Under the pieces are notes generated by a model. The model was not told where the DNA came from. It made no database searches and worked only from the letters and a program-made list of their open reading frames with translations. From the IMG/VR virus record IMGVR_UViG_3300032307_000622, positions 52,303 through 116,302 of that record: a stretch of 64,000 nucleotides of DNA, one strand, 5' to 3'. Below are positions 1,469-53,352 of this stretch, one piece after another. The DNA comes from a virus. How positions within the stretch are numbered: position 1 is the first letter of the stretch; each line of letters begins with the position of its first letter. The translations under genes and the position numbers were made by a program.

Positions 1469-2065
1469 ATGAAAAAAATCGAACTTGCAACTGGAATTAT
1501 GGTTTATGATGATGTTATTCCAAATCATGAATCACTTGTAAACGACATTGAAGAAGTTGTGTCATCAGGAGCTGTCTCTTGGCAGGCCGCCGCAGTAAAG
1601 ACATATGACCAACCAGCAGTGGATACTAACAGTAGAGACACTAGCACAATATCTGTTCCATATAGCTCACAACCTGCGGTAGATTATTCAAATCCACAAA
1701 CAACTTTCTATGGAGAGCTATCAAACATTTTTTATTCAAGCTTTGATCCTATTGAGCGTGATTATATGAATTCTTTTGGGATAAACTTTAAAGATCATTA
1801 TCCTTGGGACATTCTAAAATATGGTATTGGTCAAAAGTTTACGAACCATATAGATGATCACACAGACTATCCACGTAGAGTTTCTACTGTTTACTATATG
1901 AATGATGATTACATGGGCGGTATGATTCATTTTCCAAGATTTAACCTTAGCTTCAAGCCAAAGGCAAATCAGATGATTCTCTTCCCATCAAACTATGTTT
2001 ATAACCACTCTGTTGTTCCAGTAATAGAGGGTACTCGCTATGCAGTTGTGAGCTGGATTAACTAG
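1469..2065 (+). CDS. 2OG/Fe(II)-dependent oxygenase, prolyl 4-hydroxylase type
   Basis: This 198-residue protein carries the double-stranded beta-helix signature of P4H-like dioxygenases. H127-x-D129 (in NHIDDH) and H180 (in NHSVV) are the likely iron ligands, and R190 is the likely 2-oxoglutarate-binding residue. Between them lies the typical Y-Y-M-N-D-x-Y-x-G-G stretch. The protein is predicted to hydroxylate a protein or small-molecule substrate using 2OG and O2; the substrate is unknown. It is transcribed with the zinc protein before it and abuts the next oxygenase-like gene. All four key residues are present, so it is probably active, unlike the relative at 12914. Confidence 0.85.
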   Translation: MKKIELATGIMVYDDVIPNHESLVNDIEEVVSSGAVSWQAAAVKTYDQPAVDTNSRDTSTISVPYSSQPAVDYSNPQTTFYGELSNIFYSSFDPIERDYMNSFGINFKDHYPWDILKYGIGQKFTNHIDDHTDYPRRVSTVYYMNDDYMGGMIHFPRFNLSFKPKANQMILFPSNYVYNHSVVPVIEGTRYAVVSWIN

Positions 2066-2066
2066 C

Positions 2067-2657
2067 ATGAAGGAACCAGTGATTCTAGACTCAGTATTGA
2101 GTTTTGAGGATCGTAACGAGCTTGTTAATGCAGTAAAAGACTATAAGCGATTTGAATTCCAGCCTGGATTTTCTAGATACATAGCATCAGATATGACAAT
2201 ATCAAAGTTGGGGGAACTGGCAAATAGCCTAATTCCATTAGCAAGAAAAACCTTTAATAGTAACACTTTGCTACCAAGCTATACGCTTTTTTCTCATTAT
2301 GAGGGAGCTAACCCACCACCAAGCTTGTACAAGCATAAAGATGACAATGCCTGTACATATACGATAGACCTATGCCTATATCAAACTGAGCCATGGGATT
2401 TATGGGTAGATGACAAATCATACACGCTACAAGAAAATCAAGCATTAGGGTACTATGGCAACGATCAACTTCATTGGCGAGAAAAGTTTCCAAAGCCAGG
2501 GGCTCAGCATGTTGCCATGGTATTTTTTCATTTTGTAGAACCAGATCATTGGTGGTTTACAAAGGGTAGCTCATATCTAAACGTTATTCGTGGACAACTT
2601 ACTAATGATGCTTGGGAAAAAAGCGAGTCAATTCGGAAAAGTATGAATAATGTCTAA
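2067..2657 (+). CDS. 2OG/Fe(II) oxygenase-like protein, QxHWR family
   Basis: 196 residues. H90-x-D92 and H136 (inside QLHWRE) are placed like the metal triad of 2OG oxygenases. The segment from the HxD to the HWR motif (strand, E-P-W-x-L-x-V-D, L-x-x-N-Q-A) aligns by eye with the three adjacent proteins at 51411, 52036 and 52621, so these form one family. The gene begins 1 base after the preceding oxygenase stop. Its 3' end overlaps the convergent lysozyme gene by 30 bases. Substrate unknown. Confident of the fold, less so of the activity. Confidence 0.75.
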   Translation: MKEPVILDSVLSFEDRNELVNAVKDYKRFEFQPGFSRYIASDMTISKLGELANSLIPLARKTFNSNTLLPSYTLFSHYEGANPPPSLYKHKDDNACTYTIDLCLYQTEPWDLWVDDKSYTLQENQALGYYGNDQLHWREKFPKPGAQHVAMVFFHFVEPDHWWFTKGSSYLNVIRGQLTNDAWEKSESIRKSMNNV

Positions 2658-3131
2658 AGCAGTATTCTTGGTTGACCAAGCACTCCAGTTTTTTCCACCA
2701 TTTGACATTTGATAAGCAATTCTTGCATTAGTTAGTGGATCATACAAATCCTCATTGGAGGATAGTCCATACTTTTTTCTACGATCAGGCCCCATTGAGC
2801 CAGTCATATTAATCTGAAATAATCCATAGCAATTGCTAGACTTGTTTAGTGCCATTGGTCTTTTTGTAGATTCCTTTACGACAATGGCCCAAGCATACCT
2901 TAGCTCATATCCCCTAAATCCAGCCTCTTTTAAAATTGAGATAAGCTCTTTATCAGATAACATGGTTTTTGGGGTTCTAGTAGACTTAATAATCTCGTAG
3001 TCTCCACGTTCAAATGAAACTGTGTACGTGTTTGGAACTACCAGGCTCTGAGTCTTTGGAGAATTCAAGAATCCAAATGTGGATATAGATAGGGTTGCAC
3101 TAATTAACCCAATAGCTATGATTACATGCAT
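2628..3131 (-). CDS. Lysozyme-like / SLT transglycosylase with N-terminal export signal
   Basis: 167 residues. A hydrophobic segment at ~2-22 (MHVIIAIGLISATLSIS...) looks like a signal peptide or anchor. The catalytic part carries the goose-lysozyme/SLT pattern: Glu at 87 (VVKEST), then N-x-x-C-Y-G-L-F-Q-I-N at ~100-108, which is the usual G-L-x-Q-I substrate-groove motif. It is predicted to cleave the glycan strands of peptidoglycan. The ATG overlaps the stop of the upstream NlpC/P60 gene (TAATG), so the two are translationally coupled, probably as a lysis cassette. No holin is recognisable nearby, and export by the host secretory system may replace it. Confidence 0.8.
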   Translation of the reverse strand: MHVIIAIGLISATLSISTFGFLNSPKTQSLVVPNTYTVSFERGDYEIIKSTRTPKTMLSDKELISILKEAGFRGYELRYAWAIVVKESTKRPMALNKSSNCYGLFQINMTGSMGPDRRKKYGLSSNEDLYDPLTNARIAYQMSNGGKNWSAWSTKNTALDIIHTFPN

Positions 3132-3987: not shown

Positions 3988-3997
3988 CTTTTTTGCG

Positions 3998-5638: not shown

Positions 5639-8542
5639 ATGGCAACAGTAAACAAGAATTTTAAGGTCAAGCATGGCTTGGTCGTTGAAGGTACCACAGG
5701 TACCATTGCTGGTGAGGACATCCTTACCAAAAAGCAAGAAGATATTGATTATATTATTGATCAAGTTGGTGGCTCTGGTGTTCCTACTAATACCCCAAAT
5801 ACCCTAGTCCTTCGTGATGAAAACGGAGACTTCGCTGCTAACGATATTACAGCAAATGAAATTAGCATTGGCTCAATAGGTCGCATTTACGATGACGGTG
5901 GCGACATGGTCATTGACAATCTTGATGGCAACGATGTTACGATTAATGCTGATGATATTAGACTTAATGCACAAGATGATGTTCGTGTCAGTGCAAACGA
6001 TTTAGTTCAGCTTACATCTAATAATGGAGACATTGAGCTGGTTGCAAATGGCAATGTCTACATTGGGACTGACAATAGTCCAGAATATGTGGTAGTTGCC
6101 AAGGGAACACTTGACAGCCACATTGGTGATGTAACTGTTGACGGCACTGCAGGAAACACTGTAACTGACAGAATTGCTACTGCTAAGCAGGAAGCTATTG
6201 ATGCTGGTTCTTCAGACGTAACCACTCACTCAAACCTTACAACTGGAGTTCACGGTGTAACTGGTGATGTTGTTGGAACAACTGACACTCAGACACTTAC
6301 AAACAAGACTCTTGGTTCTGGAACTAATCTTTCTGTAAACCTAGACATGAACGGTAACAAGATTGAAGATCTTGGAACACCTACTGCTGGTACAGATGCT
6401 ACAACTAAGAACTATGTAGACGATGGAGATACCGCAACTCTTGGTTCCGCCAACTCCTACACAGATGACGAAATTACTGCACTAGACACTTCTCTAAAGG
6501 CTTATGCAGACCAGGCAGAGTCAGATGCAATTAGCTCAGCAGCTTCAGCTGCAGCAGCTCTATATGCACCACTTGCTGGAGCAACCTTTACTGGTGATGT
6601 TATCCTTCCTGGAGACCCTACCCAGGCTCTAGGTGCAGCTACAAAGCAGTACGTAGACGCAGTTGCAGAAGGACTACACGTTCACGCATCTACAGTTGCA
6701 GCTACTACCGCAAACGTGGATCTTGCAACAGGTGGATTGCTAACAATTGATGGCGTAGGTCTTAATGAAGACGAGCGTGTTCTTGTTAAGAATCAGTCAA
6801 ATGCAACTCAGAACGGTATCTACCTAGCCAAGCCTGGTGCTTGGGTACGTGCAGATGACTACAACTCTGCTGCAGAAATTCAGGGTGGTGACTTTACCTT
6901 CGTAACTGGCGGTAACACTTACGCAAATACTGGATGGGTTCAGACAAATGTTGTAACAACTCTAGGAACATCCACAATTAACTTCGACCAGTTCTCTGGT
7001 GCTGGAGAATATGTTGCAGGTACTGGTCTAACTCTAAATGGAAACTCATTCGCTATTGATGATACCGTTACAGCTACCAAGTCTTACGTAGATGGCGAAA
7101 TTTCAGACCTAGACGCTGCTGCTCAAGGCTATGCAGATGATGCAGAGGTTGATGCAAAAGCGTACACTGATCAGCGTGAAAGTGCAATCACAACTGCTTA
7201 CCAAGGTTATGCAGATAACGCAGAAGCTGATGCAAAGCTTTACACAGATCAGGAAATTTCTGCTCTAAACACTGATGACATTGAAGAAGGTCTTACCAAC
7301 GAATACTTCACAGATGCTCGTGCGAAAGGATCTGCTGCAGATCTTTTGGTAAATGCTAATAAGACAAACATTACCATTACTGGAAACGAAGATGGTCTAA
7401 CCATTACTGCAGAAAATGGTGTTGCTCAGTCTACCACAGACGATTTGACTGAAGGATCAGCAAACCTATACTTCACAGATGCTCGTGCTCAGGCTGCAGT
7501 TGCAGGAGATATAACTACTGCAATAAACGCTCTTGACACTGATGCTATTGAAGAGGGCGTAGGCAATCTTTACTTTACAGATCAGCGAGCACTTACTGCT
7601 ACATCTTCAGCATATGACCCAGCAGGTTCTGCTCAGGGTGCTTATGACAATGCAGTGTCTTACACAAACACAACGCTTGAAAATTACACTCCAACAAACT
7701 CGCTAGATTCAGTAGTTGATAATTTTGGATTCCTCAAGCAAGAAGATCTTACAGGCTATGCAACAGAAACCTATGCTAATAATGCTGCAAATACAGCACA
7801 GCAAAATGCAGAAAGCTATGCAGATTCCAAGATCAGTGATTCCTCATCTGCCTCAGACAAGGTTTGGTCCGCATACAAGACAAGCACTGAGATTAGTCTT
7901 GCTCAGGCAGCTGCAGAGCTACACGCAGATAACGCAATTGCTGCTCTCGTAGATGCTGCACCATCAACTCTAGACACTCTAAATGAGTTGGCTGCAGCAC
8001 TTCAGGATAACCCAGACATCATTTCTGACCTTCAGGATATTGCTGCTGGAAAGCAGGATACACTAACTGCTGGAGCAAACATTGACATTACAGGGGCAAC
8101 AATCTCTGTAACTGGTCTAGACACTAACGATGTTTCTGAGGGTACAAACCTGTACTTTACAGACCAGAGAGCAATTGATGCAGTTCAGAATACAACTCCA
8201 GTCTTCTCAGCAGTTGATATTGATTCAGTTGCTAAGCAGGTTGCAGCAAGTCTTGAAGCATCAACAGCAGGACTTCAGGTAGCATATGCCTGGAACAAGT
8301 CAGAATATCGTTCAGCAGAATTCCTTGTAAAGGTTGAAACCTTGACAAACTCTGAAATTTCAAAGATTCTTCTGACACTTGATTCTTCAGACAACATTGC
8401 AATTACTGAATATGGAATTGTTGGAACAAATGGCTCAATGTCATCTGTTTCAGCAGGTATCTCAGGATCAGATGTACAACTTGAGGTAACAACCACTAAC
8501 AATAACTCAGTAGTTACTGTTATGGGAACTCTACTAGCATAA
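5639..8542 (+). CDS. Large tail fibre protein
   Basis: 967 residues, with AGGAG ahead of the ATG. N-terminus NKNFKVKHGLVVEG is shared with the protein at 8561. Visible modules: HSNLTTGVHGVTGDVVG, TDTQTLTNKTL, repeated 'TKNYVD' / 'TKQYVD' turns, LLTIDGVGLNEDERVLVKN-type module near 360-385, and four EG-x-x-N-(L/E)-YFTD-x-RA repeats from ~550 to ~845. A C-terminal beta domain is shared with the protein at 5175. The composition is typical of long trimeric fibres. No chaperone or enzymatic motif seen. Confidence 0.85.
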   Translation: MATVNKNFKVKHGLVVEGTTGTIAGEDILTKKQEDIDYIIDQVGGSGVPTNTPNTLVLRDENGDFAANDITANEISIGSIGRIYDDGGDMVIDNLDGNDVTINADDIRLNAQDDVRVSANDLVQLTSNNGDIELVANGNVYIGTDNSPEYVVVAKGTLDSHIGDVTVDGTAGNTVTDRIATAKQEAIDAGSSDVTTHSNLTTGVHGVTGDVVGTTDTQTLTNKTLGSGTNLSVNLDMNGNKIEDLGTPTAGTDATTKNYVDDGDTATLGSANSYTDDEITALDTSLKAYADQAESDAISSAASAAAALYAPLAGATFTGDVILPGDPTQALGAATKQYVDAVAEGLHVHASTVAATTANVDLATGGLLTIDGVGLNEDERVLVKNQSNATQNGIYLAKPGAWVRADDYNSAAEIQGGDFTFVTGGNTYANTGWVQTNVVTTLGTSTINFDQFSGAGEYVAGTGLTLNGNSFAIDDTVTATKSYVDGEISDLDAAAQGYADDAEVDAKAYTDQRESAITTAYQGYADNAEADAKLYTDQEISALNTDDIEEGLTNEYFTDARAKGSAADLLVNANKTNITITGNEDGLTITAENGVAQSTTDDLTEGSANLYFTDARAQAAVAGDITTAINALDTDAIEEGVGNLYFTDQRALTATSSAYDPAGSAQGAYDNAVSYTNTTLENYTPTNSLDSVVDNFGFLKQEDLTGYATETYANNAANTAQQNAESYADSKISDSSSASDKVWSAYKTSTEISLAQAAAELHADNAIAALVDAAPSTLDTLNELAAALQDNPDIISDLQDIAAGKQDTLTAGANIDITGATISVTGLDTNDVSEGTNLYFTDQRAIDAVQNTTPVFSAVDIDSVAKQVAASLEASTAGLQVAYAWNKSEYRSAEFLVKVETLTNSEISKILLTLDSSDNIAITEYGIVGTNGSMSSVSAGISGSDVQLEVTTTNNNSVVTVMGTLLA
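7282..8171 (+). repeat. Four YFTDxRA repeats in the fibre gene
   Basis: Near-identical coding units for E-G-x-x-N-(E/L)-Y-F-T-D-(A/Q)-R-A occur at about 7282-7323, 7450-7488, 7552-7590 and 8137-8171. They are separated by helical or Ala-rich spacers, and probably mark repeated shaft modules of the fibre. Confidence 0.8.
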
Positions 8543-8560
8543 TAAGGCAAAGGTGATAAA

Positions 8561-9022: not shown

Positions 9023-9038
9023 TTCATAATAAAATAGA

Positions 9039-9054
9039 TGATATAATTATGAAT
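9039..9054 (+). promoter_or_regulatory. Extended -10 promoter TGATATAAT with leader
   Basis: TGATATAAT at 9039-9047 sits in the 71-base gap before the 523-residue fibre. The predicted start is near 9054, giving a ~40-base leader with an AGAGGAGA ribosome-binding site before the ATG at 9094. Confidence 0.55.
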
Positions 9055-9093
9055 AGAACACTTGGGTAAACCCCACTTAGAGGAGATATAGAC

Positions 9094-10688: not shown

Positions 10689-11414
10689 ATGGCAGCAAAT
10701 AAAAGAGCAGGAAAGAAGTCTCTTGCACAAAATGATTATCTGGCTCCAGCAGCCCCATTAATTGGGACTGCGGAAGATACTGGAAGCGGTAGATCTTTTA
10801 ATGATGCCAAGGTTCTTGTAACATTTACTCCTCAGGGACCAAATGATGCTACTTCGTTCACAGTAACATCTTCTCCAGGAGGATATACTGCAACAGATTC
10901 ATCCTCTCCAGTTATTCTTACTGGGCTTCAGTCAGGAGTATCCTATACATTTACAGTAACAGCAACTAATTCTTATGGAACTTCTGCTCCATCTGCAGCT
11001 ACCTCTGCAATTACAGCAACAACTGTTCCTGCTGCCGTAGGTACGCCATCAGTTAGCTCCCCATCAGCTGGTATTGACAGAGTTAGTTGGGACGCTCCTG
11101 CAAATGGTGGAAAAGCTATTTCTAGCTATTACTGGTATTCCTCTGATGGAAAGTCTGGAACGACATCTTCAACAACAGTAGATGTTAGCCAGGAGCAGGG
11201 AACATCTCAGACATACCAGGTTTATGCAACGAATGCTAATGGAAATGGAGCATCGTCTCCAAGCTCAGCTTCAGTCACCACAACCTTCTCCTTTGCACCT
11301 TTTGGTGCGTTTGGATTCTCACCATTTGGATTCTCTCCATTCGGCTTCTCGCCCTTTGGCTTCTCTCCATTTGGGTTTGCTCCAAACTGGTATGGCTGTG
11401 CTGGCTGGTGCTAA
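10689..11414 (+). CDS. Fibronectin type III tail protein with FGFSP repeats
   Basis: 241 residues, with AAGGAGA before the ATG. Two FN3-like domains are visible. One at ~30-115 has the ...GLQSGVSYTFTVTATNSYGTSAPS signature; the second at ~118-200 has VSWDAPANGGKAISSYYW and YQVYATNANGNGASSPS. A tail of five FGF(S/A)P repeats follows, then a short Cys-containing end (NWYGCAGWC). FN3 domains are frequent in phage tail proteins and may aid weak carbohydrate binding. The repeat tail resembles aromatic tails in other phage virion proteins, of unknown role. Confidence 0.8.
   Translation: MAANKRAGKKSLAQNDYLAPAAPLIGTAEDTGSGRSFNDAKVLVTFTPQGPNDATSFTVTSSPGGYTATDSSSPVILTGLQSGVSYTFTVTATNSYGTSAPSAATSAITATTVPAAVGTPSVSSPSAGIDRVSWDAPANGGKAISSYYWYSSDGKSGTTSSTTVDVSQEQGTSQTYQVYATNANGNGASSPSSASVTTTFSFAPFGAFGFSPFGFSPFGFSPFGFSPFGFAPNWYGCAGWC
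11310..11384 (+). repeat. Five 15-base units encoding F-G-F-(S/A)-P
   Basis: Five consecutive 15-base units encode Phe-Gly-Phe-Ser/Ala-Pro. They differ mainly at synonymous third positions, which suggests that the peptide rather than the DNA repeat is selected. Confidence 0.85.
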
Positions 11415-11418
11415 AAAA

Positions 11419-11454: not shown

Positions 11455-11473
11455 ATCGTTAGGAGATTTTATT

Positions 11474-12133
11474 ATGGACACCATGTCCCCACTAAAAAGT
11501 GTAAGCCAATCAACACAACCACATCGCTTTTTTGAAGCTTTTTTGGATAATGACCTTGAAAAGTTAAAAACAGAGCTAATTGATAGGTACGAAAAGATTA
11601 GACGAGCAGAGGTCTCTGGGGTAGGAGATCTAAGAGAAGACGAGCTTTGGAAATCTTCCAATAGTGTCTCTACAATGAAATGGAGAGAATATAACGTCTT
11701 CCAGTTTCACATTGATGGGGTTCGCAAACTATATAACGCAGTTTCCCAAATGGTCAAAGATGCCTGTGCCCACTACGATCTAGATTTTCAAAAAGAGCAG
11801 TTTATGCTTCAGGGATGGTTTAACATTAATGAGGCACACAATGGAAAGCTAGACTGGCATGATCACGGAGGCAGCGGTGCTCCAAATTTCCATGGATATT
11901 ATTCAGTTTCTGCAGAACCATCAACAACTCACTACATTGTTTTTGGAACAGAAGTAGAAAACAACAATAAAAACAATCGTGCAATTCTCTCTGAGATGGG
12001 CCACCCTCATGCTATGGGGGACTGGGATTGGTCAGGACCTAGAATTACCATCGCATATGACGTAATACCACTAAGAAGCCTGCAGACTCCAGTAGGCATG
12101 ACACAGGAGCAGCATTGGATACCTCTAAACTAA
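11474..12133 (+). CDS. 2OG/Fe(II) oxygenase-like protein, HDH type (copy 1)
   Basis: 219 residues. N-terminal helical region (HRFFEAFLDNDLEKLK), then a DSBH-like half. W-H-D-H at 128-131 is followed by G-G-S-G-A and H-G-Y-Y, then GHPH at 176-179, and R190 in RITIAYD. This fits the 2OG oxygenase branch with a W-H-x-H motif, a distal His and an R-I-x-I-A-Y/F end. A close paralogue follows immediately and overlaps it by 19 bases. Substrate unknown. It has its own promoter. Confidence 0.65.
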   Translation: MDTMSPLKSVSQSTQPHRFFEAFLDNDLEKLKTELIDRYEKIRRAEVSGVGDLREDELWKSSNSVSTMKWREYNVFQFHIDGVRKLYNAVSQMVKDACAHYDLDFQKEQFMLQGWFNINEAHNGKLDWHDHGGSGAPNFHGYYSVSAEPSTTHYIVFGTEVENNNKNNRAILSEMGHPHAMGDWDWSGPRITIAYDVIPLRSLQTPVGMTQEQHWIPLN

Positions 12134-12768
12134 TTAGTCCAAAGCCACCACACAAGTTCTTTGACAGGTTCTTAGATAATGACCTAGATGATATGTACTC
12201 TTATCTTTATCTAAAGGCACAAGACTTAGTTGCTGGCAAAATTGGGAACGTCCCACAAGAAATTTTGTCAAAGTTTAATATCTATAATGGTGCACCAACA
12301 CAGCTAGGTGACTACTACAATATATTTACGTGGGATCATCCAGGAATAAAGAAGCTCAAGGATGCCTTAGCTGACACAATTCAAGAAGCCTGTGAGTATT
12401 ACGGAATTGACTATGCTAAGGAAAACTATTTTATTAATGGATGGTTTAATTTAGACTTTAAAACTGAGGGTGAGGGAGCTGGAGTTTCCCCACTTAAACA
12501 TCCAGAACACTATCACGACCACGCAGGTGGAACTGGAATTCCAGTATTCCATGGATATTACTGTGTAAACGCTGAGCCATCCTCAACCTTTTATAAAATA
12601 AAAGATACTGACACTGTTTTTGAAAATATTAATAAAAACAATAGATTAGTTGTTTCAGAAACTGGACATCCTCACGGCCGTGATGACTGGTTTGATGACA
12701 GATACAGGATTACAATTGCATACGATATTGCAAGCGAACCAATAATAAGAAATGGAGTTAAGCTTTGA
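12115..12768 (+). CDS. 2OG/Fe(II) oxygenase-like protein, HDH type (copy 2)
   Basis: 217 residues from a TTG start with AGGAG 5 bases upstream, inside the end of copy 1. It shares with copy 1 the N-terminal FFDRFLDNDLDD stretch, the central G-W-F-N, H-Y-H-D-H with G-G-T-G and H-G-Y-Y, NNKNN-like turn (NINKNNR), GHPH, and RITIAYD. It has an insertion of about 10 residues before the HDH motif. The two arose by tandem duplication. All candidate metal ligands are kept, so both may be active. Confidence 0.65.
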   Translation: MDTSKLISPKPPHKFFDRFLDNDLDDMYSYLYLKAQDLVAGKIGNVPQEILSKFNIYNGAPTQLGDYYNIFTWDHPGIKKLKDALADTIQEACEYYGIDYAKENYFINGWFNLDFKTEGEGAGVSPLKHPEHYHDHAGGTGIPVFHGYYCVNAEPSSTFYKIKDTDTVFENINKNNRLVVSETGHPHGRDDWFDDRYRITIAYDIASEPIIRNGVKL

Positions 12769-12902: not shown

Positions 12903-12913
12903 TTGGACTATTT

Positions 12914-13513
12914 ATGGAAATTGTAAAAGGCTTTTTATCAAGAGAAGACGTTGAGGTTGTTGCTAACTACATAGCAACTATAAAGTTTAATACCAAAGAC
13001 GAACATGTTCCACTACACGATAAGCTATATACAGAATATAATGCTCAGTTTGACCTTCACACACGTGGAGAAATGCCAGACTATATACTACAAATATTTT
13101 CCAAATATTCAAAAGCATTTTATGAAATTATAGAGTCTAGATTTCCAGGAGAATACCTTCCACCAATGTTTTCAAAGCACTATATTGCTAGGTACATGGT
13201 TGGTGCAGAAACTGGGCCACAGTTCGATAATACAAAGCCAAAAGGGACCTACAAGTCAATTATTTTTTGGAATAACGACTTCGATGGCGGCAACCTTGTA
13301 TTTCCTAAATTAGAAAAGACAGTAAAGCCAGAACCTGGCGATCTAGTCTTTTTTGAAGAGGGTGAAGAAAACATGTGTGCAATTACAAAAATTCTATCAA
13401 AGCCATTGTATTTTTCAGAAGCCTGGATTGGTAAAAAGGGACAGCTTTGGATGCCCAGTAACGAACCGTATGAGAAGGTTCAGTGGGATAACTGGGAAAT
13501 AAAAGGCTTTTAG
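12914..13513 (+). CDS. Degenerate 2OG oxygenase-fold protein
   Basis: 199 residues aligning by eye with the P4H-like protein at 1469: the IARYMVGAETGPQFDN segment, then IIFWNNDFDGGNLVFP and a PGDLVFF stretch before the last strand. However, the first metal motif H-x-D reads Q103-F-D105, and the distal His region reads E-N-M-C-A with no His. Two of three iron ligands are therefore missing, so it is probably non-catalytic, perhaps a binding or structural DSBH domain. It follows the small zinc protein by 11 bases and precedes the lectin-like tail gene. Confidence 0.65.
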   Translation: MEIVKGFLSREDVEVVANYIATIKFNTKDEHVPLHDKLYTEYNAQFDLHTRGEMPDYILQIFSKYSKAFYEIIESRFPGEYLPPMFSKHYIARYMVGAETGPQFDNTKPKGTYKSIIFWNNDFDGGNLVFPKLEKTVKPEPGDLVFFEEGEENMCAITKILSKPLYFSEAWIGKKGQLWMPSNEPYEKVQWDNWEIKGF

Positions 13514-45632: not shown

Positions 45633-45654
45633 CGTTACAAAAACAAGGAGAAAA

Positions 45655-46308
45655 ATGAGTATAACTAGAGGGCTAAAAGATATCGGAGCATTAGTCGATA
45701 AGCCAAAATATGAAAACACAGGAACAAAGGTACGATGGGTAAAGCTAGCAGATGGACAGTCTGCCAAGATTCGTTTTATTGAAGAGCTTGACCAGGAATC
45801 AGCTAACTACAGTGCAGACCGTGGTCTTGCTATCGTAGTTAAGGAACACACAAATCCAAAGGATTACAAGCGTAAGGCCTTGGACACCATGGACACTGAG
45901 GGTCGTGACTGGGCAGAAGAGATGCACCGCAAGGACCCCAAGGCAGGCTGGAAGGCTCGTCTTCGTTTTTACTGCAACGTTCTAGTTGATGATGGAACAG
46001 AGGAGCCGTACGTAGCCGTATGGTCGCAGGGTGTCTCTAAGCAGTCAGCATTCAACACTCTTCGTGAGTATGCACTAGAGACTGGATCCATCTCAAATCT
46101 TGAGTGGAAGATTAAGCGTAATGGGCAGGGAACTGAGACCAACTACACACTCATTCCAATGAAGCCAGACGTAGAACCATTTAAGTGGGACGGCATTGAG
46201 CCATTTAATTTGGACACTGTTGTTCGCCATGTGCCATATGCAGAGCAAGAGGCATTCTACCTAGGGTTTGATAGCCCATCTGCAACTTCAAGCAATATTG
46301 ATTGGTAG
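45655..46308 (+). CDS. Single-stranded DNA-binding protein-like
   Basis: 217 residues. Features of phage SSBs: W-V-K-L-A-D-G-Q-S-A-K-I-R-F near 29-42, a conserved central stretch (KARLRFYCNVLVDDGTEEPYVAVWSQG), and an acidic/hydrophobic C-terminal tip (SSNIDW), the type that recruits replication proteins. Codon use is highly biased (CGT, GGT, AAG, GAG), as for an abundant protein. Own promoter and downstream terminator support strong monocistronic expression. Confidence 0.75.
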   Translation: MSITRGLKDIGALVDKPKYENTGTKVRWVKLADGQSAKIRFIEELDQESANYSADRGLAIVVKEHTNPKDYKRKALDTMDTEGRDWAEEMHRKDPKAGWKARLRFYCNVLVDDGTEEPYVAVWSQGVSKQSAFNTLREYALETGSISNLEWKIKRNGQGTETNYTLIPMKPDVEPFKWDGIEPFNLDTVVRHVPYAEQEAFYLGFDSPSATSSNIDW

Positions 46309-46318
46309 TAATAAGTTG

Positions 46319-46353
46319 ATGAGGGTAGCACAACAGCTACCCTCATTTGCTTT
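46319..46353 (+). terminator. Rho-independent terminator after SSB gene
   Basis: ATGAGGGTAGC (46319-46329) pairs perfectly with GCTACCCTCAT (46336-46346) around ACAACA, followed by TTGCTTT. Ends the SSB transcript before the polymerase promoter. Confidence 0.85.
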
Positions 46354-46360
46354 ACACGTC

Positions 46361-46396
46361 TTGACAATGTGTCAAAAATATGCAATAATTTTTACA
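46361..46396 (+). promoter_or_regulatory. Polymerase promoter with -35 inside a dyad
   Basis: TTGACA (46361-46366), a 17-base spacer and AATAAT (46384-46389) form the promoter. TTGACA-ATG-TGTCAA (46361-46375) is an inverted repeat covering the -35, so a repressor or activator could bind here. A similar repeat lies at 58223. The leader of ~27 bases carries AAGGAAA. Confidence 0.6.
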
Positions 46397-46422
46397 AATA
46401 GGTAAACAAGATTAAGGAAAAA

Positions 46423-49400
46423 ATGAGTTACGTAGGTCTTCACGTACATACACACTATAGTTTGTTTGATGGAATTGCAACTCCACAAGAATATGTCGAT
46501 AGGGCTGCTGCACTAAACATGCCTGCTATTGCAATCACAGACCATGGATCTCTTTCTGGTCACAGAGAAATGTTTCGTGCTGCAAAGGAAAAGGGCATCA
46601 AGCCAATCCTGGGCATTGAGGGGTATATTACAAAAGACAGGCTTGACCACGAAGACAAGAAGAGCAAGAACGACCCACTTGACCTTAACTACAACCACCT
46701 AATTATTCTTGCCAAAAATGATATTGGGCTTCAAAATCTAAACAAGCTAAATGAAATTGCTTGGACTGAGGGCTTCTTTAAAAAGCCACGCATTGACTGG
46801 GAAGTTCTAGAAAAATATAAAGAGGGTCTCATTGTTACCTCTGGCTGCCTATCTGGTGTTTTGGCAAAAGCTATTGAGTCAGACAATCTAGCATATGCGA
46901 AGAAGCACATTAAGTGGTGCAAGGATACTTTTGGTGACGATTACTACATTGAGGTAATGCCACACAATCCCCCAGAAATTAACAAGATGCTTTTAGAGTT
47001 GTCAGACGAGTTTGGTGTAAAGCCAGTCGTTACTCCAGACTGCCACCACTCCGACCCAGCTCAAAAAGAAATCCAGGAGCTGAAGCTTATCCTTAACTCA
47101 TACGCAAACAAGACTGAAAAGGATGTTACGTATGAAGAGTCCAAGGAATATGATAACTTAATGGATCGCTTGGACTACTTGTATGGTGCAGATCGACAGA
47201 TGTCCTTTAATAAGTTTGAGATTCATCTACTATCAAATGAAGAAATGCACCAGGCAATGAGTGCACAGGGCATTGATAGAGAAGACATGTATGAGACAAC
47301 TCTTGAGATTATGAATAAGATTGAGGAATACTCAATAAAAGATAACCAAGACTTGCTACCAGTTCAATATCAAAATCCAAATGAAGAGCTTGCTAACTTG
47401 GCAATGGATGGACTTAGAGAACGTGGCTTAGACAAGAATCAGGAATACCTAGACAGGTTAAAAGAAGAGCTAGAGGTTATTGCAAATAAAAACTTTGGGC
47501 CATACTTTCTTGTTGTCCGTAATATGATTTCGTGGGCAAAGAAAGAGGGGATTATGGTTGGTCCAGGTCGTGGATCTTCTGCAGGATCTCTGCTTTGCTA
47601 CACCCTAGGCATTACTGACATTGATCCTATTCAGCACGGACTTTTGTTTTTCCGATTTATCAATCCAGAACGTAACGACTTCCCAGATATTGATACAGAC
47701 ATTCAGGATTCACGTCGTGAAGAGGTAAAGGATTATCTTGTTAGGCAGTATCGTCACGTAGCGTCTATTGCAACCTTTCTAGAATTTAAGGGCAAGGGAA
47801 TTGTTAGAGATATTGCACGTGTGCTAAACATCCCACTTGTTGATGTAAACAAGGTATTGAAGCTTGTAGATGATTGGGATGACTATTGCACTTCAAAACA
47901 GACAGCTTGGTTCCGTGAAAAGTATCCAGAAATTGAAGAGTATGGAGAACAGTTGCGAGGTCGCATTCGTGGAACTGGTATTCACGCAGCTGGAGTTGTA
48001 ACTGCTAAGGAGCCTATCTTTAAGTATGCTCCAATGGAGACAAGAACTGCTCCAGGAACAAAAGAAAGAATTCCAGTAGTTGCAGTAGACATGACAGAAG
48101 CAGAGCGTATTGGTCTTATTAAGATTGATGCACTTGGTCTAAAAACTTTGTCAGTAATTCAGGATACATTAAAAATTATTGACGGTAGAAGTAGCAGGAA
48201 GATTGACCTACACTCAATTAACATGGAAGATGCTAATGTCTATACAATGCTATCTGATGGATATACGAAAGGTGTCTTCCAATGTGAAGCTACACCATAC
48301 ACAAATCTTCTAGTTAAGATGGGCGTTAAAAACTTTGCAGAGCTTGCAGCATCTAATGCTCTAGTTCGTCCAGGTGCAATGAACACTATTGGTAAAGACT
48401 ATATTGCTCGTAAGCATGGTAAGCAAAACATTAGCTATCACCACGAAGTTATGAAGTCATTTACTGCAGAAACCTATGGATGTGTTTTGTATCAGGAGCA
48501 GGTTATGCAGGCCTGTACTGAGCTTGGCGGAATGACCATGGCTGAAGCTGACAAGGTTCGTAAGATCATTGGTAAGAAAAAGGATGCTAAAGAGTTTGAC
48601 CAGTTTAGGGAAAAGTTCGTAAAGGGTGCATCTAGGTACATCTCTCCTAACTTGGCAGAAGACCTATGGCATGACTTTGAGGCACACGCAGGGTACTCTT
48701 TTAACAAGTCTCACGCTGTGGCATACTCAACAGTTTCCTATTGGACTGCATGGTTAAAGTATTACTACCCTATTGAGTTTATGTACTCTCTACTTAAAAA
48801 TGAGAGTGACAAAGATGCTCGCACTGAGTATTTGATTGAAGCCAAGCGTATGGGTATTTCTATCAAACTTCCACACATCAATGAGTCAGACATTGACTTT
48901 AAGATTGAGGGCAAGGGAATTCGTTTTGGACTGAGTGCAATTAAGTATATTTCAGATAACATTGCTAGCAAATATATGGCTGCACGTCCATTTAGCTCTT
49001 ATGCTGAATTAGAAGAGTTTACCTTTACAAAGGGAAGTGGTGTTAACAGTCGTGCACTCCAGGCACTGAGACTAGTTGGTGCTGCAACTTTTGAGGATAA
49101 TCCAAGAAACGATGAAGAAATTCGTGAAAACCTATATGAGTATTTAAACTTGCCAGAGTTTAACACATCTATTCCTGCACACTATCATGCCTTTATTAAT
49201 GATATAGAGGAGTACGAAGAAAAGGGAGTCTTCGTTTTGATGGGAATGGTAAAGAATATAAAACGCAGCAAGGGCTGGTCACGTGTAGAAATTCTAGACA
49301 AAACTGGTAGCGTTGGTATTTTTGATGAAGAGCAGACAACAATTGAAAGCGGAAAAACCTATATGGTCTTAGCTAGCGATAATAGAATTGTCTCTGCTGT

Positions 49401-49701
49401 ACCAGTAGACGAGCTTAAAGGTTCTACAAATGGCTTTATTAAATTCTTAAACTACAGAATGTTGCCATATAAAGATGATCAAAAGTTTGTGGTATCATTT
49501 AAGCCACGAGTTACAAAAGCAGGTAAAAAGATGGCATCGCTAGTTCTGGCAGATACCGATAGAGACCTGCATGCTGTAACCGTTTTCCCTACAGCTTTTG
49601 CAAAAGCATATATGAAAATTGAAGAGGGTAATGCCTATAACTTTACCTTTGGACAAACTAAAGATGGAACTGTCATTATGGAAGACGTTGAAAGCGTCTA
49701 A
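46423..49701 (+). CDS. dnaE: C-family DNA polymerase III alpha subunit (DnaE-type)
   Basis: 1092 residues. N-terminal PHP domain with H7-x-H9, D40-H41 and E66, and a later P-D-C-H-H; the metal-binding residues are kept, so intrinsic PHP proofreading is possible. The polymerase active site includes GPGRGSSAGSLLCY and the catalytic D-x-D in F-P-D-I-D-T-D (~420-426); later F-N-K-S-H-A-V-A-Y-S is the conserved thumb/fingers segment. A helix-hairpin-helix and OB region follow near 880-1090. A bacterial-type replicase is uncommon in phages. Makes the genome copies with the helicase and primase encoded upstream. Confidence 0.95.
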   Translation: MSYVGLHVHTHYSLFDGIATPQEYVDRAAALNMPAIAITDHGSLSGHREMFRAAKEKGIKPILGIEGYITKDRLDHEDKKSKNDPLDLNYNHLIILAKNDIGLQNLNKLNEIAWTEGFFKKPRIDWEVLEKYKEGLIVTSGCLSGVLAKAIESDNLAYAKKHIKWCKDTFGDDYYIEVMPHNPPEINKMLLELSDEFGVKPVVTPDCHHSDPAQKEIQELKLILNSYANKTEKDVTYEESKEYDNLMDRLDYLYGADRQMSFNKFEIHLLSNEEMHQAMSAQGIDREDMYETTLEIMNKIEEYSIKDNQDLLPVQYQNPNEELANLAMDGLRERGLDKNQEYLDRLKEELEVIANKNFGPYFLVVRNMISWAKKEGIMVGPGRGSSAGSLLCYTLGITDIDPIQHGLLFFRFINPERNDFPDIDTDIQDSRREEVKDYLVRQYRHVASIATFLEFKGKGIVRDIARVLNIPLVDVNKVLKLVDDWDDYCTSKQTAWFREKYPEIEEYGEQLRGRIRGTGIHAAGVVTAKEPIFKYAPMETRTAPGTKERIPVVAVDMTEAERIGLIKIDALGLKTLSVIQDTLKIIDGRSSRKIDLHSINMEDANVYTMLSDGYTKGVFQCEATPYTNLLVKMGVKNFAELAASNALVRPGAMNTIGKDYIARKHGKQNISYHHEVMKSFTAETYGCVLYQEQVMQACTELGGMTMAEADKVRKIIGKKKDAKEFDQFREKFVKGASRYISPNLAEDLWHDFEAHAGYSFNKSHAVAYSTVSYWTAWLKYYYPIEFMYSLLKNESDKDARTEYLIEAKRMGISIKLPHINESDIDFKIEGKGIRFGLSAIKYISDNIASKYMAARPFSSYAELEEFTFTKGSGVNSRALQALRLVGAATFEDNPRNDEEIRENLYEYLNLPEFNTSIPAHYHAFINDIEEYEEKGVFVLMGMVKNIKRSKGWSRVEILDKTGSVGIFDEEQTTIESGKTYMVLASDNRIVSAVPVDELKGSTNGFIKFLNYRMLPYKDDQKFVVSFKPRVTKAGKKMASLVLADTDRDLHAVTVFPTAFAKAYMKIEEGNAYNFTFGQTKDGTVIMEDVESV

Positions 49702-49729
49702 CAACTTAATAAGGAATGGAGCTAAAATA

Positions 49730-49951
49730 ATGATTACCGTATATACAAAACCAGCATGCGTTCAGTGTGATGCCACAAAAAGATTGCTGACAAAGCATGG
49801 ACTAAGCTTTGAAACAATTGACATTACAGAAGACCAGTTAGCCTATGACAAAATCATATCTATGGGCTTTAAGTCAGCTCCAGTTGTAATAACAGACAAC
49901 GATTCTTGGGCTGGCTTTAATCCAGACAAGATTAATGGATTGGCTGCCTAA
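49730..49951 (+). CDS. nrdH: NrdH-type glutaredoxin
   Basis: 73 residues from ATG 49730 with AAGGA-ATGGAG upstream. Active site C-V-Q-C at 9-12 is the NrdH signature (glutaredoxins have CPYC), and S-A-P-V-V with the later W-x-G-F-x-P match the family. It should pass electrons to the class Ib ribonucleotide reductase. The reductase genes nrdI-E-F lie about 10 kb away, instead of next to it as in bacterial operons. Overlaps the RecA gene region. Confidence 0.9.
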   Translation: MITVYTKPACVQCDATKRLLTKHGLSFETIDITEDQLAYDKIISMGFKSAPVVITDNDSWAGFNPDKINGLAA

Positions 49952-49952
49952 T

Positions 49953-50966
49953 ATGACAACAATAGAAGAAGCGTTAGCACAACTAGATCCTAAAATAAGA
50001 AAAAGGCTTGGTCCAGCGGTTGGCATTAAGACTGAGCTTCAGCCAACACCAAGTCCAGGATTAAACAGGGCATTGGGTGGTGGCCTTCCATATGGTAGAC
50101 AGGTTCTTTTGTGGGGTAGCAAGTCTAGTGCAAAGTCATCTCTTTGCTTGCAGACCATAGGAATGGCACAGAAAGACGGAAAGCTTTGTGCCTGGGTAGA
50201 TGCAGAAATGTCTTATGATGAAGAGTGGGCAAAAAAGCTTGGTGTAGATACCACTCAGCTGATTTATTCTGAAGCTAGAAGTATCAATGACATGGTTGAT
50301 GTGACTGTTGCACTTTTGGATGCAGGTGTAGACCTGATTGTCATAGACTCAATTAGCTCATTATTGCCAGCAGTATACTTTGAGAAAGATTCAACAGAGC
50401 TAAAGCAGTTGGACCAAACAAAGCAAATTGGTTCAGAGTCTAAGGACTTGAAGCATGCATGGATGATGATAAATTATGCAAATAATCAAAAGAAGCCTGC
50501 CCTTGTTATTGCTATTTCTCAAGCAAGAAATAACATCACAGCAATGTATACGCAATCAGTACCTACTGGAGGAAATGCAACACAATTCTTTTCGTCCACA
50601 ATAGTTAAGCTGTTCTCGTCTGGCTCTGATGCTCAGGCAATCAAGGGAAAGATTAAGGTTGGAGACAAGCTTATTGAACAAAAGTTGGGTCGCAAGGTTC
50701 GCTGGGAAGTTCAAAATTCTAAGACATCTGCACCAGGAGATAGTGGTGAGTATGACTTTTATTTTAAGGGAGACAGTCTTGGAATAGACTCAGTGGGAGA
50801 TCTAGTAGATACTGCTGAAATGTTGGGTATTGTAGAGAGAACTGGTGCTTGGTACATTCTTCCAGATGGATCTAAGTTGCAGGGTAGAGAAGCTTTTGTT
50901 ACTCATATCAAGAACGATATAGAGCTTCAAGAGACAATTAGGAACAAGGTCAATGGCGAAGTATAA
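49953..50966 (+). CDS. recA: RecA-like recombinase
   Basis: 337 residues from ATG 49953 (an in-frame ATG at 49935 would overlap nrdH by 17 bases). Walker A is G55-S-K-S-S-A-K-S-S, with Ala where RecA has Gly before the Lys. Walker B-like DLIVIDSISSLLP and the DNA-loop segment (SVPTGGNATQFFSSTIVKLF) follow. Shorter than bacterial RecA and lacking its typical C-terminal domain. Performs strand exchange in replication-linked recombination. Encoded between nrdH and nucleases. Confidence 0.85.
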   Translation: MTTIEEALAQLDPKIRKRLGPAVGIKTELQPTPSPGLNRALGGGLPYGRQVLLWGSKSSAKSSLCLQTIGMAQKDGKLCAWVDAEMSYDEEWAKKLGVDTTQLIYSEARSINDMVDVTVALLDAGVDLIVIDSISSLLPAVYFEKDSTELKQLDQTKQIGSESKDLKHAWMMINYANNQKKPALVIAISQARNNITAMYTQSVPTGGNATQFFSSTIVKLFSSGSDAQAIKGKIKVGDKLIEQKLGRKVRWEVQNSKTSAPGDSGEYDFYFKGDSLGIDSVGDLVDTAEMLGIVERTGAWYILPDGSKLQGREAFVTHIKNDIELQETIRNKVNGEV

Positions 50967-51141
50967 TGTTTACAATGGAGAATTTCCATGCCATACTTGC
51001 AAAACTATAGTTACCAGTCTTAGGCAATACCTGGACTCTGGAGAGCTTACTTGGCTTTGTCCTCAGAATCATCTAAGCACGGTAAACCTAAAGCCAGTTA
51101 AAAAAACAAAGAAAGACTATGAGCGAGAAAAGCGAAAGTAA
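50953..51141 (+). CDS. Small zinc-ribbon protein
   Basis: 62 residues overlapping the end of RecA by 14 bases. C-H-T-C at 13-16 and C-P-Q-N-H near 36-40 (a zinc ribbon with three Cys and one His), then a very basic tail (KPVKKTKKDYEREKRK). Probably binds nucleic acid. It overlaps the next gene too (23 bases). Confidence 0.6.
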   Translation: MAKYNVYNGEFPCHTCKTIVTSLRQYLDSGELTWLCPQNHLSTVNLKPVKKTKKDYEREKRK

Positions 51142-51403
51142 GCGAATTAACGCTAAGCAGCATAAAAACTCTGGACGTGGAACCCATAAGGGGGATGCGA
51201 CCTGGAAAAACTTTACTGTTGACTTTAAAGAGGTTCAGAAATCTTTTACTATCAATAAGGACGTTTGGGCCAAGGCAGTCACAGATGCTATTCGGAATGG
51301 AAATGATCCTGCGATCATGGTTGTCATTGGAAAAGATGGAGTTAAGACAAGGCTTGCGGTTATAGAAGCCTCGCTGCTTGAGCAAATTATTGATGGTGTA
51401 TAA
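51119..51403 (+). CDS. Putative small PD-(D/E)XK nuclease / resolvase-like protein
   Basis: 94 residues. The conserved core is H-K-N-S-G-R-G-T-H-K-G-D-A-T-W followed by F-T-V-D-F-K-E. The spaced D...D-x-K arrangement fits a minimal PD-(D/E)XK nuclease, and small proteins with N-S-G-R-x-x-x-K-G-D occur near recombination genes in phages, where some are called Holliday junction resolvases. C-terminal part has a beta strand (PAIMVVIG) and KTRLAVI. Active-site reading is mine and needs structure modelling. Its stop codon lies inside the next promoter. Confidence 0.45.
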   Translation: MSEKSESKRINAKQHKNSGRGTHKGDATWKNFTVDFKEVQKSFTINKDVWAKAVTDAIRNGNDPAIMVVIGKDGVKTRLAVIEASLLEQIIDGV

Positions 51404-51413
51404 TTAAGATATG
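51399..51413 (+). promoter_or_regulatory. Leaderless-type promoter overlapping a stop codon (TATAAT-N6-ATG)
   Basis: TATAAT at 51399-51404 contains the TAA stop of the previous gene, and the next ATG is six bases later. A partial -35 TTGAGC lies at 51378-51383 with a short 15-base spacer. No ribosome-binding site. Confidence 0.6.
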
Positions 51414-52046
51414 AAATACGCAGACTTAGTAGCATCTCAGCCATACGTAAGCAATCAGGACTTCAAGCCTTTGGTTGTTTCAGATGTATTATTGCCAGAA
51501 CAAATATCAGAAATTTACTCCGCAGTTTCTGCTTTACCAGAAAGCCAAACAAGAATTCAGCCCTGGGCTGGGCATAAAATTTGGGACACCAGGTTTTCAA
51601 AAGAGATTGAAGACAGGATAACTGCTGTTGCCCAATCTGTTTTGGGAGACATCGTGGTCTTAAATTATGACTATTCTTTTGCAAGATACTCTAGAAAGTT
51701 TGGCTATGAGTGTAAGCTATTCCCACACTACGATACTAGAGAAGCACAAAGAATAACCTTTGACATTCAACTAAAGGCATCTGAGCCCTGGGCGGTAGTT
51801 GTGGAAGGCGAGCCATTTTACCTAGAGGATAACCAAGGCTTAATTTTTGCAGGAACCCAGCAAATCCATTGGAGAGAAAATAAAACAATAGCTGAGGATG
51901 CAGAAATTGATATGATTTTTTGTCATCTAGAGTATGTCAACACATTGCCACTTGATGAGGGGCAGGAAGATATTCTGCGTGAAAGAGCAAGCTTTTTAAT
52001 GCATGAGTCTGGAATTGGAAATGAGGTAGTTACAAATGAAGTTTGA
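51411..52046 (+). CDS. 2OG/Fe(II) oxygenase-like protein, QxHWR family (cluster copy 1)
   Basis: 211 residues. H106-x-D108 (F-P-H-Y-D-T), then F-D-I-Q-L-x-x-x-E-P-W-x-V-V-V-E-G, and H153 in Q-Q-I-H-W-R-E. These match the protein at 2067 and the next two genes. All three metal ligands are present. The C-terminal tail is helical and acidic. Starts a three-gene cluster placed between recombination genes. Substrate unknown; protein, nucleotide or DNA are all possible. Confidence 0.7.
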   Translation: MKYADLVASQPYVSNQDFKPLVVSDVLLPEQISEIYSAVSALPESQTRIQPWAGHKIWDTRFSKEIEDRITAVAQSVLGDIVVLNYDYSFARYSRKFGYECKLFPHYDTREAQRITFDIQLKASEPWAVVVEGEPFYLEDNQGLIFAGTQQIHWRENKTIAEDAEIDMIFCHLEYVNTLPLDEGQEDILRERASFLMHESGIGNEVVTNEV

Positions 52047-52617
52047 TGAAATAAATGTTGTGGTTAAAGATTTGCTGACTGAGTCAGAAATCAAAGAAAT
52101 TTATGCAATGGTTGATCAGTCATACAATAAGTTTATTATGCCACATCTAGGTCAGCAAGTATCTGACTTCAGAATGCCTGACTCTGTTATGGAAAAAATT
52201 CTTAAAGTTTCTAAAGAGATATCTGGATACGATGATTTAATTCTAGAGGCATATCAGTTTGCTAGATATGAAAAATTTATTAGAGAAGATGGTGTGACAT
52301 CAATTCCAAAGTTGGCACCACACCATGACACATTCGATCAGCCAAGGTTTACCTTTGACTATCAGCTAGGATCAAATATTTCTTGGCCCATCGTTGTTGA
52401 AGGAAATGAATCTGTATTGAAAGATAATGAGGCTGTAACTTTTAGTGGAACTCACCAAGTTCACTGGAGGCCAGAGCGAGAGTGGACTGAGGGCGAATAC
52501 ATGGACATGATATTCTGCCACCTGCATTCTCCAAGTTTTCCTGTAAACTCATCAGAGCACAATGACCTCATGCTTGCCAGAGCAAAAGACTATCGTGAAA
52601 AAATTGGAATTGAGTAA
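52036..52617 (+). CDS. 2OG/Fe(II) oxygenase-like protein, QxHWR family (cluster copy 2)
   Basis: 193 residues, overlapping the previous gene by 11 bases. P-H96-H-D98 gives the H-x-D, followed by F-T-F-D-Y-Q-L-G, and H143 in Q-V-H-W-R-P. The pattern I-V-V-E-G-N-E-S-V-L-K-D-N-E-A matches its neighbour. Metal triad intact. Clearly a paralogue of the flanking two genes, so the cluster arose by tandem duplication. Confidence 0.7.
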   Translation: MKFDEINVVVKDLLTESEIKEIYAMVDQSYNKFIMPHLGQQVSDFRMPDSVMEKILKVSKEISGYDDLILEAYQFARYEKFIREDGVTSIPKLAPHHDTFDQPRFTFDYQLGSNISWPIVVEGNESVLKDNEAVTFSGTHQVHWRPEREWTEGEYMDMIFCHLHSPSFPVNSSEHNDLMLARAKDYREKIGIE

Positions 52618-52620
52618 TAG

Positions 52621-53352
52621 ATGCCAATTGCAAAAATGCATAAATATCTCACTGGATTTGACAGATACAATAAAACTCTACCAATATACATAGAAAAGCC
52701 CTTCACAGCCTCACAGGCAGAAGAGCTTCGTAATTCTATAGATTCTATACGTTCACGTCCATTGGCCTCAGAGATCCTGCCAGGTGACAAAGAAGAGTTT
52801 ACGAGCAGCACAAGTAGGCTGGACCCAAGAATAATGACACATATGTCAAGAATGATTATTGAATTTATTTGTCCAAAATCCATAGAGTCTGTAATGGACT
52901 CATACTGTAAGCCAGTCCACAAAGATGAAATAAAGCTTGCACATTACAGCTACATAGACTATAATTTAAAGTACGGTGATGGAAGGTATGAGCCATCACT
53001 GCCACCACATATTGACAGTACTGAAAATCTTGTGACATTCAACTATCAGCTTGGTGGCAACATTGACTGGGATATTTACATAGATGGAGAAAAGCATAGC
53101 CTTAAAACTGGAGATGCCATAATTTTTAGTGCAGTTAACCAAGTTCATTGGAGACCAAAGCGTGAGTGGAAAGAGGGGGACTTTTTGGAAATTGTAACCT
53201 TTGACTATTCTCCACCAACAGATTGGGCTTTTACAGGAGAAGACGATCCAATTGATCCAAACAAATATCCAGAAAAGATGCGAGAATACCTAGAAGAATT
53301 GTCAACGAAAAAGCAGTACCAGGATGCATGGAACATGTATAATAGACTTTAA
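52621..53352 (+). CDS. 2OG/Fe(II) oxygenase-like protein, QxHWR family (cluster copy 3)
   Basis: 243 residues, starting 3 bases after copy 2. P-P-H130-I-D132, F-N-Y-Q-L-G-G-N-I-D-W-D-I-Y-I-D-G, L-K-T-G-D-A, and H176 in N-Q-V-H-W-R-P-K-R-E-W. Metal triad intact. It has a longer N-terminus and a C-terminal helical extension ending KKQYQDAWNMYNRL. The closest relative is copy 2. Confidence 0.7.
   Translation: MPIAKMHKYLTGFDRYNKTLPIYIEKPFTASQAEELRNSIDSIRSRPLASEILPGDKEEFTSSTSRLDPRIMTHMSRMIIEFICPKSIESVMDSYCKPVHKDEIKLAHYSYIDYNLKYGDGRYEPSLPPHIDSTENLVTFNYQLGGNIDWDIYIDGEKHSLKTGDAIIFSAVNQVHWRPKREWKEGDFLEIVTFDYSPPTDWAFTGEDDPIDPNKYPEKMREYLEELSTKKQYQDAWNMYNRL

Follow-up and report, generated by a model that had tools for sequence, protein, structure and literature searches.

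We analysed a window of 64,000 nucleotides, corresponding to positions 52303-116302 of the 116,302-base virus record IMGVR_UViG_3300032307_000622 (coordinates marked "record" refer to the whole 116-kb record, all others to the window), for genes of the 2-oxoglutarate (2OG)/Fe(II) oxygenase type, which are characterised by a double-stranded beta-helix (DSBH). An initial sequence-only reading had named eight such open reading frames (ORFs), starting at 1469, 2067, 11474, 12115, 12914, 51411, 52036 and 52621. All eight are present at these starts and encode 193-243 amino acids, and they lie, as that reading had it, at three positions, two in tail regions and one in a recombination region. In the tail regions, the gene orders are TP-repeat/PASTA protein, DUF6171, prolyl 4-hydroxylase (P4H)-like and QxHWR (158-2657), and fn3 fibre with a (GFSPF)n tail, HDH, HDH and degenerate P4H (10689-13513), QxHWR and HDH being two further types of DSBH protein.

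158..1159, + strand: fibre-like protein with a PASTA domain (5.5e-8), several Thr-Pro runs (TPTPTP...) and a Cys/Trp/Tyr-rich C-terminus
1228..1467, + strand: DUF6171 zinc-ribbon protein, a tail-module companion (PF19668, 7.3e-6, just under the cut-off)
1469..2065, + strand: P4H-like 2OG/Fe(II) oxygenase, HID...H...R intact (PF13640, 2.8e-15)
2067..2657, + strand: QxHWR-type DSBH protein, HKD...HWR intact (phrog_2954, 1.1e-13)
10689..11414, + strand: fn3-domain fibre protein (fn3, 6.6e-10) with a (GFSPF)n Phe-rich repeat tail ending NWYGCAGWC
11474..12133, + strand: HDH-type DSBH protein 1, PF13759-like (HDH profile match)
12115..12768, + strand: HDH-type DSBH protein 2, 41% identical to protein 1, its tandem paralogue (AlphaFold model)
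12914..13513, + strand: degenerate P4H-like paralogue with QFD in place of HxD, Cys in place of the distal His, and no Arg

Oxygenase genes lie directly downstream of repetitive fibre genes

The protein encoded at 1469 is a clear PF13640 member by its sequence, with a match above the curated cut-off (57.5 bits against 27) and HID, H and R all present in the alignment. The 158..1159 protein is a candidate substrate of the 1469/2067 module, and the 10689..11414 fibre is a candidate substrate of the HDH pair. Proteins with TP, APTPV or PPV repeats occupy the same position as 158..1159 in relatives. For loci recruited by QxHWR, P4H was directly upstream of QxHWR in 76/80, long TP, APTPV, APIP or PPV repeat proteins were found just before the pair, and the order Pro-repeat protein, P4H, QxHWR was seen in 47/48. 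The fn3 fibre likewise occurs in relatives as one base with varied tails, including (VFGFSPFG)n, (PPFFPFFP)n and YNYSNF repeats. HDH genes occur widely among viral contigs, with 250 stretches confirmed, and are mostly tandem: 65 of 82 loci have exactly two. Elsewhere in the tail region of the record (record 45361-50155), the proteins at record 45361 and at record 49454 contain collagen-like Gly-X-Y stretches; in the one at 49454, five triplets have Pro at Y, the classical context for P4H. Oxygenase clusters also adjoin tail-fibre genes in S-SCSM1 and in Pelagibacter phage Mosig.

Two further features of these modules were noted. DUF6171 zinc-ribbon genes adjoin tail fibres regardless of oxygenases (window 1228-1467, record 44027-44224 and many relatives), and the fn3 fibres of several relatives (L015:2298-3572, L196, L198, L212 and L056) have Hint/intein-like ends, at times after the repeat (PF14890 1.8e-5 in L015, below the cut-off).

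Fibre repeat type and oxygenase type are matched

To avoid selecting on the oxygenases, 80 loci were recruited by the fn3 fibre alone, with no oxygenase in the query. HDH was detected within four genes downstream of 12 of the 13 Phe-repeat fn3 fibres, and P4H within the same distance of 30 of the 32 Pro-repeat fibres, only one of which (1/32) was followed by HDH. A second classification, in which tail type was taken from composition and the partner was the first oxygenase downstream, gave 15 HDH, 1 P4H and 4 without a partner for Phe/Tyr-rich tails, and 34 P4H, 2 HDH and 2 without a partner for Pro-rich tails. The Fisher p of 5.6e-8 for this table is valid only if the rows are independent, which they are not. 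The one P4H in the Phe/Tyr-rich row follows a fibre with a PYFP repeat, which falls barely under the Pro threshold. On a tree of the fibre N-termini, tail type changed about seven times and oxygenase partner about six, mostly together, with both types interleaved on the same fibre family. We found no report of repeat-matched or tail-fibre-directed phage hydroxylases in the literature searched, most subscription journals lying outside it, and as far as that literature goes the repeat-matched cassettes of fibre and oxygenase are new.

QxHWR and HDH proteins are predicted to have oxygenase-like folds

Profile searches gave no significant Pfam match for the four QxHWR proteins of the window (2067, 51411, 52036 and 52621) or for 11474 and 12115, the QxHWR proteins matching phrog_2954 (1e-13 to 4e-3). 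Structures were predicted for one member of each Pfam-less type, 52036 and 12115, and both gave oxygenase-like DSBH folds, in keeping with the fold assigned from sequence patterns in the earlier reading. The outcome that this reading had named as refuting, predictions lacking such a fold, was thus seen for neither divergent type. The AlphaFold model of 52036, the one QxHWR family member modelled, was built with 44 relatives and has an all-beta core with a DSBH (predicted local distance difference test, pLDDT, 93.1); its best PDB matches were PHD1, a putative oxygenase, PHD2 and PBCV-1 vCPH (E 1e-6 to 1e-5, TM 0.5-0.6), with AlkB-family structures also present below the top-ranked prolyl hydroxylases. 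Across 62 QxHWR sequences, H96, D98, H143, W144 and R145 are invariant, and H96, D98 and H143 correspond to the 2-His-1-carboxylate ligands. At the usual place of the 2OG-binding Arg/Lys, about 10 residues past the distal His, these 62 sequences have no conserved basic residue; R145, two residues after the distal His, is the sole invariant basic candidate. A profile-profile comparison of QxHWR with P4H was not significant (probability 1.1%), so the homology of the two rests on fold and motif. The six QxHWR paralogues of the record were too divergent to serve as an alignment for the collection search, for which single-protein queries were used instead.

The model of 12115, made with homologues, reached a pLDDT of 94.9, and its top PDB folds were 2rg4/3bvc, which we take to be PF13759-like structures, followed by PHD2 and Pseudomonas putida P4H. 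The HDH profile matched PF13759-type cyanophage and pelagiphage proteins (profile-profile probability 95.6%), two of which exceed the PF13759 cut-off. The HDH type has the pattern HxH...H...R, with H134, H136, H187 and R198 each found at 95% of 119 sequences, and like the PF13759-type phage proteins it has His in the carboxylate position of HxD. A PDB sequence search with the QxHWR and HDH alignments gave no relevant match, and phrog_2696, tried for HDH, had no match in this record.

The QxHWR family carries the name ferrochelatase

The families phrog_2954 and phrog_3531 (T4-GC 615), named "ferrochelatase" in PHROG, are one and the same as the QxHWR family (profile-profile 99.1%, E 1e-18), but the name has no backing from PF00762, fold or motif. 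We detected no PF00762 match in the QxHWR copies of the window (E up to 1) or in the cyanophage and pelagiphage "ferrochelatase" namesakes (E up to 0.1). The HxD...HWR motif is present in the "ferrochelatases" of S-SM1 (L176:2256-3372), S-PM2 (L177:1273-1881), ACG-2014f (L276:6263-7351) and Mosig (L277:5839-6609), and those of ACG-2014f and S-SCSM1 are QxHWR-P4H fusions. The BFVD model of the S-SM1 "Ferrochelatase" (E3SI68) aligned with the 52036 model (E 8e-9, TM 0.52-0.57). We thus rejected a ferrochelatase identity for QxHWR, given the missing PF00762 match, a DSBH instead of the chelatase alpha/beta fold, and the HxD...HWR motif.

The name has spread widely: with one phage "ferrochelatase" as the tblastn query, 150 phage records were returned and, among the matches listed, most were annotated as ferrochelatase. 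It stands behind an ecological conclusion, the seasonal enrichment of "ferrochelatase (phrog2954)" (PMC11561400), and behind a heme link argued from phage ferrochelatases (PMC9599517), and is unsupported by sequence or fold. Both findings are better read as concerning co-occurring 2OG-type oxygenases. A second misnamed group of oxygenases is probably formed by the phage "DNA endonuclease V" proteins (PHROG 274/2297): HxD...H motifs are present in those of Mosig (L277:6609-7121), S-MbCM7 (L275:7546-8542) and S-H9-1 (L278:7531-8037), and weak PF13640 matches (4e-5 to 2e-3) were obtained for three of the four proteins tested.

The P4H-like gene at 12914 is degenerate

For 12914, the match to PF13640 was only sub-threshold (0.0017). 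Its clade comprises 21 distinct sequences, none of which (0/21) has HxD or the Arg, compared with 42/42 intact among the other homologues; two rows misfiled by the filter were taken out of the clade count by eye. Having no HxD dyad, distal His or Arg, 12914 is therefore probably no oxygenase, and it is better described as a DSBH-like protein whose oxygenase activity has probably been lost. Motif conservation within the clade suggests a retained non-catalytic role, and as a pseudo-oxygenase 12914 would probably keep a binding or partner role. Catalytically degenerate and intact P4H-like genes were observed in tandem in many relatives (clade examples are L024:12912-13511 and L018:12900-13505).

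A QxHWR island is conserved in the recombination operon

The third position (51411-53352) holds three QxHWR genes between RecA/resolvase genes and phrog_9818/Cas4/RuvC-like genes.

49935..50966, + strand: RecA-like recombinase, conserved left flank of the island (sequence, synteny)
51119..51403, + strand: Holliday-junction-resolvase-family protein, left flank (phrog_2002, 1.4e-21)
51411..52046, + strand: QxHWR-type DSBH protein, island copy 1
52036..52617, + strand: QxHWR-type DSBH protein, island copy 2 (modelled)
52621..53352, + strand: QxHWR-type DSBH protein, island copy 3
53374..53679, + strand: phrog_9818 protein, right flank (9.3e-25)
53688..54500, + strand: Cas4-type nuclease, right flank (phrog_1706, 2.4e-44, and phrog_1990)

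A syntenic island with 2-5 QxHWR paralogues was found in 10/10 genomes examined, this one included, and the median identity to the copies of this record was 44% for island members vs 71% for the flanks. The island is conserved yet fast-evolving, and direct service to the fibres is unlikely. We suggest that the triplet forms a separate, lineage-conserved, fast-diverging set with a target different from that of the tail oxygenases. This target would most likely be a protein, of host or phage, encountered in early infection, with DNA as its main rival.

Proposed hydroxylation of the phage's own fibres and alternative explanations

The analysis shows the fold (by structure prediction), the motifs, the gene order and the matching of repeats to oxygenases. 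The explanation we favour, with a probability of about 0.55, is that the tail-region oxygenases hydroxylate the phage's own fibres, that the QxHWR set of the recombination operon is separate and that 12914 is a pseudo-oxygenase; for fibre modification by the tail-region genes our confidence is moderate. In this scheme, 1469 with 2067 and 11474 with 12115 would be post-translational hydroxylases of fibre proteins, and each tail set would be a heritable cassette placed immediately after a fibre gene whose C-terminal tail is repetitive. The type of oxygenase would suit the repeat chemically: Pro-rich tails would have P4H, often accompanied by QxHWR, and Phe/Tyr-rich ones tandem HDH. The fibre would be made and its repeats then hydroxylated by Fe(II)/2OG/O2 chemistry, which would make the stalk stiffer or prepare it to receive sugars from the glycosyltransferases frequently encoded next in relatives. 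Hydroxylation of tail proteins was among the options listed in the sequence-only reading and is specifically supported for the tail-region genes by the repeat matching, whereas DNA modification, also listed, draws its backing only from the position of the QxHWR island.

Several observations weigh against fibre hydroxylation. In the 158-1159 protein of the window itself the Pro runs are short, with 11 Pro in 40 residues, and some Phe/Tyr tails have little or no Pro, leaving the target residue of HDH ambiguous. When loci were recruited by a different tail gene, P4H was just downstream of the flagged Pro-repeat fibre in 6 of 11 contigs; because the other five retain the fibre and DUF6171 without P4H, the TP module is either optional or served by another P4H of the genome. 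The repeat classes and thresholds were fixed after the sequences had been inspected. Finally, on well-supported branches of the fibre tree there is only one independent switch pair, and clade ancestry could therefore account for much of the matching: there would be two phage clades, each with one fibre type and one oxygenase set, and no functional linkage. Such an artefact, which would also be favoured by the many contigs that are near-copies, is in our view somewhat unlikely: both types are interleaved in one fibre family, about 6-7 changes, most of them concordant, are seen on the best tree, and the oxygenases are immediate neighbours of the fibre.

The remaining alternatives assign the enzymes other substrates. 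An action of the QxHWR island on DNA, by base modification or AlkB-like repair, with the tail genes doing something else, would account for its location between RecA and Cas4/RuvC in 10/10 genomes and for the AlkB-family structures among the fold matches, and a repair role has been suggested for some cyanophage P4H-domain genes beside uvsX/uvsY (PMC2984593). The top folds are prolyl hydroxylases rather than AlkB, however, no hypermodification partner genes were recognised among the examined, partially annotated genes, and the same QxHWR family is found in tail modules away from DNA genes; we regard this explanation as unlikely. A role of the oxygenases as auxiliary metabolic genes, consuming 2OG or otherwise rewiring host metabolism, with the tail neighbourhood as a hot-spot for cargo, is improbable in our view. 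This role has been proposed for cyanophages (PMC3037559; framed as auxiliary metabolic genes in PMC9602691 and PMC11561400) and is compatible with the variable numbers among relatives, some close ones having no tail cassette, but it predicts neither HDH after Phe-rich and P4H after Pro-rich fibres nor the directly adjacent P4H-QxHWR pairs and fusions. Tailoring of sugars or small molecules, such as a surface glycan or a natural-product-like compound, together with a carbamoyltransferase, a tryptophan-halogenase-like gene and glycosyltransferases, seems quite unlikely as well. Genes that, read from sequence, resemble glycosyltransferases, epimerases and carbamoyltransferases do follow P4H-QxHWR in relatives, and the record has a Trp_halogenase match and, at record 7152-9844, two P4H-like genes flanking a NodU-type carbamoyltransferase gene; no such genes are found beside the window's own tail modules, and the repeat matching favours protein substrates.

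Returning to fibre hydroxylation, we tentatively extend it to freshwater actinophages, which might carry exchangeable cassettes of a fibre tail (Pro-rich, Phe-rich or Tyr/Asn-rich) and its cognate oxygenase on a common fn3 base, a possible phage counterpart of collagen/extensin maturation.

Comparison with known systems

In animal collagen and plant hydroxyproline-rich glycoproteins, a repeat stalk is hydroxylated by P4H and then glycosylated. The present case, an analogy, differs in that it concerns a putative modification of phage proteins. We know of no precedent for such hydroxylation of Phe-rich repeats, and hydroxylation of the Phe/Tyr-repeat class would be without precedent if the cassettes are exchangeable as suggested. 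The P4H of PBCV-1, vCPH, is said to act on peptides from Pro-rich repeats of the virus itself. It is among the top folds for the QxHWR model, but it belongs to a eukaryotic algal virus and has no tail fibre or matched sets of distinct oxygenase types. Like the P4H-like genes here it is virus-encoded (5c5t), and evidence for 4-hydroxyproline in proteins of the virus is reported for it (Eriksson et al. 1999, cited in PMC9301287). One survey, in which a viral P4H gene was abundant, described the use of that gene as "cryptic" (PMC9301287). The clusters of S-SCSM1 (24), S-SM1, Mosig and HTVC023P-type pelagiphages are similar in having PF13640, PF13759 and QxHWR in tandem, often by tail fibre genes, but they are read as metabolic genes, QxHWR is called ferrochelatase, and no repeat matching is reported for them in the literature searched. 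Few unexplained genes of aquatic phages are as common as those for 2OG/Fe(II) oxygenases, which elsewhere are counted as metabolic genes. Should they act in tail-fibre maturation, a large group of genes now taken to be metabolic would instead encode enzymes that modify structural proteins and bear on host recognition, and the neighbouring repeat would supply an immediate testable peptide substrate.

Oxygenase number, host and other genes of the record

The count of at least eight oxygenases in the sequence-only reading holds as a minimum but is an undercount, because the window belongs to a larger record carrying six further DSBH genes; the eight named are seven plus the degenerate 12914. The 116-kb record has 14 DSBH (2OG/Fe(II) oxygenase-type) genes, 5 P4H-like, 1 Asp/Arg-hydroxylase-like, 6 QxHWR and 2 HDH, and the putative ligands are intact in 13 of them. 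The six outside the window are:

record 7152: P4H-like gene
record 9152: P4H-like gene
record 16223: P4H-like gene
record 26595: Asp/Arg beta-hydroxylase-like gene (PF05118, 9.4e-15)
record 42514: QxHWR gene
record 43127: QxHWR gene

That one or two such genes are common and eight a striking expansion, as the same reading proposed, did not survive comparison. By the same profiles, nine related contigs from freshwater-phage relatives have 8-15 DSBH genes per record and the cyanophages S-SM1, S-PM2 and S-SCSM1 at least eight each; the published count for S-SCSM1 is 24 2OG-Fe(II) oxygenases (PMC9602691), and eight non-orthologous oxygenase types have been noted in pelagiphages (PMC9599517). Eight such genes are thus not unprecedented, being matched by the counts in relatives and S-SCSM1; the expansion itself is already known in kind, and the count is not the surprising part.

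The terminase shares ~54% identity with the terminases of Streptomyces siphophages of about 130 kb, among them Gilson and Yaboi, and the ORF at record 14672 is WhiB-like by sequence; an actinobacterial host is therefore likely. The NodU-type carbamoyltransferase gene lies between the P4H-like genes of record 7152-9844, and the tryptophan-halogenase-like gene spans record 22161-23363 (PF04820, 8e-32). In the window, 59340-62792 encodes NrdI and class Ib NrdF with, between them, a 704-amino-acid ORF that fits the large ribonucleotide reductase subunit, together a class Ib ribonucleotide reductase set.

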